This document shows, piece after piece, positions 2,541 through 5,309 of a stretch of DNA of 41,862 bases. Where the stretch lies: contig JAPHTA010000185.1 of NCBI GenBank assembly GCA_026196475.1, positions 1 through 41,862 of the forward strand, written 5' to 3'. The stretch is from Sedimenticola sp. (GTDB lineage Bacteria > Pseudomonadota > Gammaproteobacteria > Chromatiales > Chromatiaceae). The translations under genes and the position numbers were made by a program. The notes under the pieces are model-generated. The model searched no databases, was not told the origin of the DNA, and saw nothing but the letters and a program-made list of their open reading frames with translations. Numbering within the stretch: position 1 is the first letter of the stretch; the number at the start of each line of letters is the position of its first letter.

Positions 2541-2831
2541 TTACTCCTTCCCTTTCTTGTCGCGGCCAGCGGTCAGGTCAAAGGGTACCACGGTGGATGA
2601 GGGCTGCTGATCCGTGTAATAGGGTTTTGGCGCCGTTTCACCAGCCGCCTCCCCCAGTTCACGCTCGCGGGCGGTAATCAGCCCCAGGCAGACCCGGATA
2701 TCCTGAATCGTTGTCTCGCTCAACGGATGCTGCATGCCAGGGGGCGGCGTGGTATCCCGGATAACCGAAGTTAATACCTTGCGCATGGCCTGCAGGATCT
2801 CGCGATCCTTCTCGATATCGGTAGTGATAAT
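2541..2831 (-). CDS. Small conserved-looking protein downstream of prkB-like gene
   Basis: I do not recognise the family. The first ATG is at 2786 and gives 81 residues. However, the frame is open upstream to the stop of the prkB-like gene and reads like natural protein (TTDIEKDREILQAM before the ATG). A strong GGAGGAGG (2843-2836) lies just before 2831. Initiation at ATT (2831) or ATC (2828) would give 95-96 residues, and ATT overlaps the upstream stop by one base (TGATT), as TGATG does in coupled genes. The protein is hydrophilic. It has an N-terminal helix (EKDREILQAMRKVL), a central PPPGMQHPLSETTIQDIR and ITARERELGEAAGE segment, and a basic tail. No signal peptide or membrane helix is seen. 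Tight linkage suggests it works with the PRK-like protein. Confidence 0.65.
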   Translation of the reverse strand: MITTDIEKDREILQAMRKVLTSVIRDTTPPPGMQHPLSETTIQDIRVCLGLITARERELGEAAGETAPKPYYTDQQPSSTVVPFDLTAGRDKKGKE

Positions 2832-3709
2832 CAGGCCTCCTCCGGTTGTAGACGCCGTTCCATCATGGCATGTACCAGCGGGTTCAACAACTGTTCCATG
2901 GCGAACTCCATCTTGCCTCCGGGAACCACCAGGCAGTTACGTCGTGACATGAAGGCGCCGGGTATTCGTTTCAGCAGGTAGGCAAAATCGTGCTCTTTCG
3001 GCTCCTTGAAACTGATCACTACCATGCTCTCGTCACTCTCCGGCAGATCGCGCGCCTCGAATGGATTCGAGGTGTCCACCAGCGGAATACGCTGGAAATT
3101 GATGTCCGTGTTGGTGAACTGGGGGGTGATGTAATGAACGTAATCGTGCAGGCGATGCTGAATAACCGACCGGACCTCGTCCAGGGTATAGCCCCGGTTA
3201 CGGATGTCGGTATGGATCTTCTGAATCCACTCCAGGTTGACGATTGGTGCAACCCCCAGTACCAGGTCGGCATAGCGGGCAAGGTCCGCATCATCACCGC
3301 TGTAGGCACCGTGCAACCCCTGGTAGACCAGAAGGTCGAGCCCCTCGGGTAGCGGCTCCCAGGGTGTAAAGGTACCCACCGGCTGTGAGAACGCCTGCGC
3401 CTGCTCCTCGGTGTGCAGGTAGTGCCGGTAGCGTCCGCTCCCCTTCTCGGAGAATTCCCTGAACAGTTTCTCCAGGAGGTCAAGCCGGTTCCCTTCCGGA
3501 CCGAAGTGGCTGAGAAAGTGCCCATCGGCGCAGGCCTGTTCCACCTGTCGTGCCATCTCGTCCCGCTCGTAGCGGTGGAAGGCACTGCCATCGATCACCA
3601 GGTGGTTGATCTTCTCCCGCCAGGCGATATGACTGAAGACGTCACTCACCTTGGCCGAGCCGGAGCCGGAGGATCCGGTGATCACAATGATGGGATGTTT
3701 ACTGGACAT
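2831..3709 (-). CDS. PrkB-type phosphoribulokinase homologue with altered active site
   Basis: A 292-residue protein that aligns along its whole length with class I phosphoribulokinases, most closely the E. coli PrkB type (HFLSHFGPEGN, YLHTEEQA, VGTFTPWEPLPE, IVNLEWIQKI, YITPQFTNTDINFQR, VDTSNPF, LVVPGGKM). The expected function is ATP-dependent phosphorylation of ribulose 5-phosphate. Three active-site features are changed. The P-loop reads GSSGSGSAKV instead of GSSGAGTTT. The catalytic Asp of EGDSFHR is Ser42 (DGSAFHR). The Walker-B-like Glu of YEGLHG is Gln130 (YQGLHG). The HR pair (45-46) is kept. I infer low or no PRK activity, so it may be a regulatory pseudoenzyme or act on another substrate. 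The start at 3709 fits the family; a longer ORF from ATG 3757 adds 16 unsupported residues. It is followed without a gap by the small gene ending at 2541. Confidence 0.85.
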   Translation of the reverse strand: MSSKHPIIVITGSSGSGSAKVSDVFSHIAWREKINHLVIDGSAFHRYERDEMARQVEQACADGHFLSHFGPEGNRLDLLEKLFREFSEKGSGRYRHYLHTEEQAQAFSQPVGTFTPWEPLPEGLDLLVYQGLHGAYSGDDADLARYADLVLGVAPIVNLEWIQKIHTDIRNRGYTLDEVRSVIQHRLHDYVHYITPQFTNTDINFQRIPLVDTSNPFEARDLPESDESMVVISFKEPKEHDFAYLLKRIPGAFMSRRNCLVVPGGKMEFAMEQLLNPLVHAMMERRLQPEEA

Positions 3710-3836
3710 GGCCGCAACCGTAATACAACCCCAATACCGTTGCAATCGAAGCAGCATTCAATTTTTCTTATAGAACCTGCGGCCCATCCTTATAAGTATC
3801 ATCCTGTTTTACCTGAAATTTTCTGAATTCAACCGG

Positions 3837-5309
3837 TTATTCAAGTCGCCCCAGGGTGGCCACGAGAAGATCCCAGAAGCGTTGTACGGAAACGATGTGC
3901 AAACGCTCATCCGGCGAATGCGGATTACGGATGGTGGGTCCCAGGGAGGCCATTTCCAGAGCGGGGTAACGACTCCCGATGACACCGCACTCAAGCCCGG
4001 CGTGAATCGCGCCGGTCCGCAGTGACGTACCGAAAAGAGCCCTGTAGGCATCTCCCAGCAGGTACAACAGGCGGGAATCCGGGTTCGGCTGCCAACCTGG
4101 ATAGTGACCGTCAATCCGGCTCTCCGCCCCGGCAAGCCGGAACAGCGAGCGAAGCTCCGCACAGAGTGCATCCCGCGCGCTGTCCAGCGAGCTGCGCACC
4201 AGGCACCGGATCTCCATACGCCCTTCGGCTATCCGCACCACCGATAGATTGGTCGAGGTCTCCACCAGGTCCGGCATGTCGGCGCTCATCCGCTGCACAC
4301 CACTGGGGCAGGCGTTGATGGCGTCCAGCAGCCGCCCCTGCAGAGTCTCCGGAAGGAGCGCGCCAGCCACCTCCCCTGCCCTCAGGGAGATCTTCATCTC
4401 CGGCTCGGTTGTGGAATACTCGTGACGGATCTGTCCGGCGAGTCTTTCGATCAGCGAATTGAAGCGGGGGACAAGTTCCCGCTCCAGCATCACTCTGGCA
4501 ACCGCCTCCCGTGGAATCGCGTTGCGCATGTTGCCCCCACTGAATTCGCCCAGGCGGAACGCCACCTGTTCCCCGGCCAGGTTCAGCAGCCGTGCCAGAA
4601 GCCGGTTGGCATTGCCCCTTCCCCGATGGATATCAAGGCCGGAGTGTCCGCCGGACAGCCCTCCGACTTCCAGGATCAGTGTCTCTAGCTCCGGGGCGGG
4701 TGATTGCGGCTCGTAGTCCAGTTCGCTGGTCACGTTGGCACCGCCTGCACAACCTATACAGACCAGCCCCTCCTCCTCGGAATCGAGATTAAGAAGGATT
4801 TCACCGCGCAGAAGATCCGGGGACAAGCCCTTGGCGCCGGTCATGCCATCCTCCTCGTTGCTGGTGAACAACACCTCCAGCGGACCGTGTTTCAGTTTCT
4901 GCCCTTCCAGCACTGCCAATGCAGCCGCCACGCCGATACCGTTGTCGGCACCCAGGGTGGTGCCCGAGGCGGTGACCCAATCATGGTCGATACGGGCCTG
5001 GATCGGGTCACGGGTAAAATCGTGCCGGGTGCTGCTGTTCGCCTGCGGCACCATGTCCAGGTGTCCTTGCAGTATCACCCCCGGCGCCCCCTCCATCCCA
5101 GGTGAGGCCGATTTGCGAATCAGGATGTTGTCGTGAGGATCACGTATGAATTCAAGCGCCAGGGATTGTGCAATACTGATAACATGCTCTTGAATCGCCG
5201 CTTCGTGATGGGACGGCCGGGGAATCCGGGTGAGCTGCAGGAAGTGTTTCCAGACCGGCAGTGGCTTCAACCCGGCGATGGGGTTATTCGAGAGTGATAT
5301 GTCTTTCAC
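3837..5309 (-). CDS. pepD: Aminoacyl-histidine dipeptidase (peptidase D)
   Basis: A 490-residue di-zinc peptidase of family M20 (PepD/carnosinase-like). It cleaves Xaa-His and other dipeptides in the cytoplasm. Visible metal and catalytic residues are His83 and Asp85 (QGHLDMV), Asp122 (LGADNGIG), Glu152-Glu153 (TSNEEDGMTGA), Asp176 (LNLDSEEEG), and a C-terminal HAGLECG that carries the last His ligand. The N-terminal PLPVWKHFLQLTRIPRPSHHE is typical of PepD. Length matches E. coli PepD (about 485). The gene stands alone on the minus strand and is divergent from the DUF364 gene across 105 bases. The 5' sequence shows no clear operator. Confidence 0.93.
   Translation of the reverse strand: MKDISLSNNPIAGLKPLPVWKHFLQLTRIPRPSHHEAAIQEHVISIAQSLALEFIRDPHDNILIRKSASPGMEGAPGVILQGHLDMVPQANSSTRHDFTRDPIQARIDHDWVTASGTTLGADNGIGVAAALAVLEGQKLKHGPLEVLFTSNEEDGMTGAKGLSPDLLRGEILLNLDSEEEGLVCIGCAGGANVTSELDYEPQSPAPELETLILEVGGLSGGHSGLDIHRGRGNANRLLARLLNLAGEQVAFRLGEFSGGNMRNAIPREAVARVMLERELVPRFNSLIERLAGQIRHEYSTTEPEMKISLRAGEVAGALLPETLQGRLLDAINACPSGVQRMSADMPDLVETSTNLSVVRIAEGRMEIRCLVRSSLDSARDALCAELRSLFRLAGAESRIDGHYPGWQPNPDSRLLYLLGDAYRALFGTSLRTGAIHAGLECGVIGSRYPALEMASLGPTIRNPHSPDERLHIVSVQRFWDLLVATLGRLE

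Follow-up and report, generated by a model that had tools for sequence, protein, structure and literature searches.

A conserved candidate pseudo-phosphoribulokinase in a lineage of CO2-fixing Gammaproteobacteria

In phosphoribulokinase (PRK), a conserved Asp has been described as the catalytic base and a P-loop has been described as well, both in the numbering of the plant enzyme, and R. sphaeroides PRK has been described as octameric (PMC9978339). PrkB of E. coli carries the motifs EGDSFHR, YEGLHG and GSSGAGTTT, all of them intact, as an earlier note on the DNA studied here had stated. A third described system, the GAPDH-CP12-PRK complex, resembles the locus reported below only in the idea of a PRK regulator. 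We take Asp42 to be the R. sphaeroides counterpart of the plant catalytic-base Asp, and the roles of Glu131, Arg168, the sugar-phosphate residues and the allosteric arginines are likewise assumed here.

In this study, we examined a PRK-like gene in a stretch of 41,862 nucleotides from Sedimenticola sp. (contig JAPHTA010000185.1; here called the window). The open reading frame at positions 2831..3709 is real and its coordinates are right; it runs from 3709 to 2831 on the minus strand, which the earlier note had not stated, with an ATG at 3709 and a TGA stop codon at 2833-2831, and encodes 292 amino acids. The product, here named pseudo-PRK, matches Pfam PF00485 (166 bits, cut-off 22) and the curated NCBIfam model NF011997 (412 bits, cut-off 362) over its whole length, and the closest solved structure is 1A7J, the PRK of R. 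sphaeroides (E value 2.6e-87). An AlphaFold2 model built from 34 sequences (the window and named loci) had a mean pLDDT of 89.8 and a pTM of 0.87, and a Foldseek search with this model again ranked 1A7J first (TM scores 0.88/0.92, 46% identity in the alignment), so the PRK fold is predicted to be retained. By both sequence models and the predicted fold, pseudo-PRK belongs to the bacterial-type PRK sequence family, and no other domain was found in the protein using Pfam.

While pseudo-PRK is homologous over its whole length to R. sphaeroides PRK, E. coli PrkB and the NF011997 family and shares with them most sugar-phosphate residues and Asp169, it differs from the R. sphaeroides enzyme in lacking Asp42, Glu131, Arg168 and the Walker-A Ser/Thr19. 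The altered P-loop, GSSGSGSAK (residues 12-20, positions 3650..3676, minus strand), aligns with GSSGAGTST of R. sphaeroides PRK and deviates from GSSGAGT[ST]T at Ser16, Ser18, Ala19 and Lys20. In the altered catalytic-base loop, DGSAFHR (residues 40-46, 3572..3592, minus strand), Ser42 (3584-3586) replaces and aligns with Asp42, and in YQGLHG (residues 129-134, 3308..3325, minus strand), Gln130 (3320-3322) takes the place of Glu131. A further loss that the earlier note had missed is the replacement of Arg168 by Thr167 (3206..3211, minus strand), next to an Asp that is kept (Asp168 here, Asp169 in R. sphaeroides). The matches to family and fold and the alignment with R. sphaeroides PRK bear out what the note had read from the letters, namely well-kept PRK fold blocks together with a changed P-loop, Asp and Glu.

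For comparison, we used 156 intact PRK rows, in which Asp42, Glu131, Thr18 and Arg168 were each present without exception (156/156). These rows exclude the three degenerate groups described below (A, B and C), duplicates, 1A7J and five further rows, i.e., L116 with Glu42 and four truncated or split ones (L223, the two pieces of L216, and L047); some genes entered twice via two routes, and the rows are thus not equal to independent genes. Ninety alignment columns are at least 95% identical in the intact rows, of which the majority of the clade containing pseudo-PRK (group A, see below) retains 78. In the remaining 12, namely columns 16, 18, 29, 40, 42, 43, 87, 104, 131, 168, 186 and 188, the clade majority differs; seven of them fall into catalytic motifs, compared to 27 of all 90 (p 0.028, with a motif set that was drawn post hoc).

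We then analyzed the distribution of pseudo-PRK. Orthologs with matching losses at the same locus were found in eight of the nine genomes of the genus (G000 to G008); the other seven copies share 79 to 81% identity with that of the window, and two of them have Gly instead of Ser42. In the ninth genome, G008, the locus is unassembled: pepD (C42:2-1312) and aguB (C81:17820-18023 of 18025) reach contig ends. A loss of the gene in G008 was considered and rejected, since the contigs end inside both flanking genes. Further members exist at other loci in two other genera (G023, 68% identity; G018, 65%), and the clade is patchy there: among the matches listed, it occurs in one of three genomes of g11 (G018) and in one of two of g16 (G023), the other of which is 84% complete. 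Beyond these ten members, the best identity among the matches listed was 56% in the 210 genomes of the family, which are also the order-wide set. The ten sequences form one clade with a support of 100/99 in a careful tree of 70 rows and of 99 in a quick tree of 177 rows.

In a sample of the class, 225 of 369 genomes matched the clade profile. Among the best 30 of these 225 matches, the locus of the window was the sole altered one, and the other 29 had Asp42 and Glu131. Among the 80 named loci listed, at least two were altered, L099 (Sedimenticola sp. isolate N3M-Bin_8) and L116. The latter, a PRK from a Sulfuricella metagenome-assembled genome (L116:6001-6861), has Glu for Asp42, keeps Glu131 and shows an odd P-loop, GASGAGTEPV.

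Within the ten-member clade, column 42 holds Ser (eight members) or Gly (two), column 131 Gln (nine) or Lys (one), and Arg168 is lost in all ten. Column 19, which is Ser or Thr in all 156 intact rows, is occupied by Asn (six members), Ala, Trp, His or Tyr (one each), and column 20 by Lys or Arg. In contrast, His45, Arg49, Tyr98, His100 and His134 are invariant (10/10), as are Lys165, Asp169 (both 10/10), Arg173, Arg187 and Arg257. Lys53 and Arg234, which are presumably part of substrate or effector sites, are lost in most members. Of the features by which we recognized an active PRK, pseudo-PRK lacks Asp42, Glu131 and the P-loop GSSGAGT[ST][TS], and the clade retains Asp169 together with Lys165. 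Judged from these residues, the nucleotide and phosphoryl-transfer side appears to be dismantled, while the sugar-phosphate side appears to be mostly kept. ATP binding seems disfavored because position 19 of the P-loop is Ala, Asn, Trp, His or Tyr. Pseudo-PRK is therefore very probably devoid of normal PRK activity, as far as its residues tell.

To assess selection, Nei-Gojobori omega was determined for the eight genus members, with a finite dS in 17 of 28 pairs. The median for pseudo-PRK was 0.057; the nearest pair gave 0.071 (dN 0.011, dS 0.149) and the eight nearest pairs ranged from 0.056 to 0.108. For the canonical PRKs, compared in seven of these genomes, the median was 0.030 (21/21 pairs), and for the second intact PRK it was 0.047 (20/28 pairs); many dS values are near saturation, which leaves the medians rough. 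Pseudo-PRK evolves faster than its intact paralogs (median dN 0.128 versus 0.044 and 0.059), and its frame is open in all ten clade members. Hence, pseudo-PRK is under purifying selection in the genus, slightly weaker than that on the intact paralogs. Loss of catalytic residues and purifying selection thus coincide in this clade, as in a pseudoenzyme, and the host lineage of CO2-fixing Gammaproteobacteria keeps by selection a PRK paralog that is probably dead.

The genome of the window contains two further PRKs, one on C175 with intact motifs and a canonical one whose two pieces lie at contig ends of C312 and C259 and jointly show intact motifs. These PRKs (L046; L048 plus L047) belong to the same family as pseudo-PRK but, unlike it, have an intact P-loop, Asp42 and Glu131. 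Three PRKs were counted in each of G001 to G007 and two in G008, and all ten clade genomes encode a PRK with intact P-loop, Asp42 and Glu131. Nine second PRK copies were fetched from G018, the group B genomes and G119, and all nine were intact. All ten clade genomes also had a match to the RuBisCO large subunit (only fragments in G005 and G007), and a RuBisCO gene is located about 5 kb away from the canonical PRK in G004. However, co-occurrence with an intact PRK says little about a partnership, because 192 of the 210 family genomes match PRK. The CP12-like partner that had been suggested earlier is not supported: CP12 (PF02672) had no match in the pseudo-PRK protein, and a search of 14 genomes, with Synechococcus as a positive control that matched, gave none either.

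As a whole, we give even weight to the explanation that preferably accounts for these data, namely a maintained dead PRK paralog with a regulatory function. Pseudo-PRK would fail to phosphorylate ribulose 5-phosphate and would probably not bind MgATP, yet could still bind pentose phosphate. It may act on the active PRK, most likely either as a subunit of its octamer in a mixed assembly or as a sensor of ribulose 5-phosphate; the octameric state of the bacterial PRK from R. sphaeroides offers a route to such a mixed assembly. With less certainty, this action might tune the supply of RuBP. The regulatory partnership itself is a possible mechanism to which we attach slightly less than even weight. 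The earlier note had proposed that the gene is selected for a different function, such as that of a pseudoenzyme, and the shared losses, the purifying selection and the normal PRK in all ten clade genomes support this. Its suggested checks gave the same picture: the clade shares Ser/Gly42 and Gln/Lys131 (support 100/99), an intact PRK accompanies each member, and the lone decaying copy named as a refutation was not what we found, as the relatives share the losses at a median omega of 0.057.

In the genus, pepD, pseudo-PRK and a small gene are encoded in this order on one strand, with aguB and aguA on the other. The aminoacyl-histidine dipeptidase gene pepD (3837..5309, minus strand) is the upstream neighbor and is conserved in the genus. 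The intergenic stretch between pepD and pseudo-PRK (3710..3836) is conserved over eight species and possibly represents a control region of its own; its alignment has a mean column identity of 80%, gene ends included. A simple scan of this stretch gave no match to the sigma-70 consensus. A TATTAC box is located nine or ten bases upstream of the ATG, and as there is no clear Shine-Dalgarno sequence, a leaderless start of pseudo-PRK is possible. On the plus strand, positions 431-2483 harbor a pair of genes for agmatine deiminase and N-carbamoylputrescine amidase (putrescine synthesis), both under NCBIfam equivalog cut-offs. No cbb genes were found beside pseudo-PRK, whose neighbors are pepD, the small gene and the agmatine genes, and PADLOC gave no match that would point to a role in defense.

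An operon reading was rejected, as the neighbors scanned outside the genus are unrelated and the context therefore gives no function: phosphate transport and methionine sulfoxide reductase genes in G018, a polysaccharide deacetylase gene in G023, genes for a metal ATPase and a sigma factor (G013) or PPK2 and a lipid A acyltransferase (G122) in group B, and RapA and patatin genes in G186 of group C. The lack of cbb neighbors and the conserved upstream region would also fit a stand-alone sensor or binder of pentose phosphates with a target other than PRK, for example a regulator of transcription or of another enzyme, as would the mostly invariant sugar-phosphate residues. We consider this alternative unlikely, given that the protein has no additional domain and that an intact PRK is present in all ten genomes, the latter being a weak point in view of the 192 of 210 matching family genomes.

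Pseudo-PRK might also be active as a kinase that relies on a different substrate or catalytic base, in a re-used fold whose altered residues form a new active site. The retained fold and sugar-phosphate residues and the fairly consistent replacements (Ser in eight and Gly in two members at column 42, Gln in nine of ten at column 131) are in line with this, but position 19 takes five different residues in ten proteins, including Trp, Tyr and His, unlike a conserved nucleotide site, and the catalytic-base acid is lost. We regard such a kinase as distinctly improbable, and the changed substrate put forward earlier is likewise disfavored by the loss of both the catalytic base and the Walker-A hydroxyl. 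A slow but normal PRK in which other residues replace Asp42 and Glu131 would explain why the NF011997 cut-off is passed and Asp169 and Lys165 are kept; it is very unlikely in light of the missing Asp, described as the catalytic base for the plant enzyme (PMC9978339), in addition to the loss of Arg168 and the Walker-A hydroxyl. A pseudogene on its way out, which the loss of several key residues could suggest, is hardly credible with an open frame in 10/10 members, omega values of 0.056 to 0.108 in the eight nearest pairs and a locus kept across the genus.

Based on their sequences, two further groups of apparently degenerate PRKs, on separate branches, exist in the same GTDB family. Group B (L020, L022 and L209-L213; seven genomes from two genera) has Ser42 and Arg131, keeps Ser19 and has Ser instead of Thr18. 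Group C, of which seven members from three genera were fetched (L024, L217-L221 and L228), mostly has Asn42 and Asp131, with about 28 residues inserted and both His45 and His100 replaced; one member has Asp42 with Lys131, and one keeps Glu131. The catalytic positions of both groups are changed as in pseudo-PRK, but the replacements differ and the P-loop Ser/Thr19 is kept. An intact PRK was present alongside in 7/7 group B and 6/7 group C genomes, with none found in G187 (84% complete). Groups A and B are sisters with a support of 86/91, which was not starred; a single clade of A, B and C was not rejected (AU p 0.279), and the tree contains three state changes at residue 42. For the regulatory reading, these groups allow a more specific version, which we put forward tentatively and consider rather doubtful: a dedicated nucleotide-blind PRK subunit that binds ribulose 5-phosphate, joins the octamer and sets its activity, and that arose two or three times in the family.

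Pseudo-PRK is a conserved candidate PRK pseudoenzyme that the current curated model names an ordinary PRK. All five degenerate copies tested (that of the window, two more of group A, one of B and one of C) pass the curated NCBI model "phosphoribulokinase". Since the Calvin cycle is commonly marked by PRK, degenerate copies that pass the model mislead both annotations and copy counts. If pseudo-PRK indeed regulates PRK, this would represent a way to control how much RuBP is supplied in chemoautotrophs for which the CP12 search gave no match. Judged by title and opening of the abstract, none of the PMC matches listed, a scope without bioRxiv preprints and without the majority of subscription journals, describes an inactive PRK paralog.

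Two bases after the stop codon of pseudo-PRK, a small conserved gene of 95 amino acids follows (2541..2828, minus strand). Its product has no match in Pfam, NCBIfam or PADLOC, and of the 55 genomes searched, 33 contain the gene, the genome of the window included. At 12 loci outside the genus (2.5 to 3.3 kb each), it adjoins pepD twice, aguB once and PRK never (0/12), and it was therefore rejected as a functional partner; since it occurs without PRK at these loci, its adjacency in the genus looks as if pseudo-PRK had been inserted next to an older gene. The small gene probably starts with ATC (2828-2826), with the internal ATG of a conserved MRKVL motif as the alternative. This likely ATC start lies 14 codons ahead of MRKVL and is preceded by GGAG at a distance of eight bases in 8/8 genomes of the genus, and in five other genera with a readable start, an ATG occupies this position or lies one codon closer.
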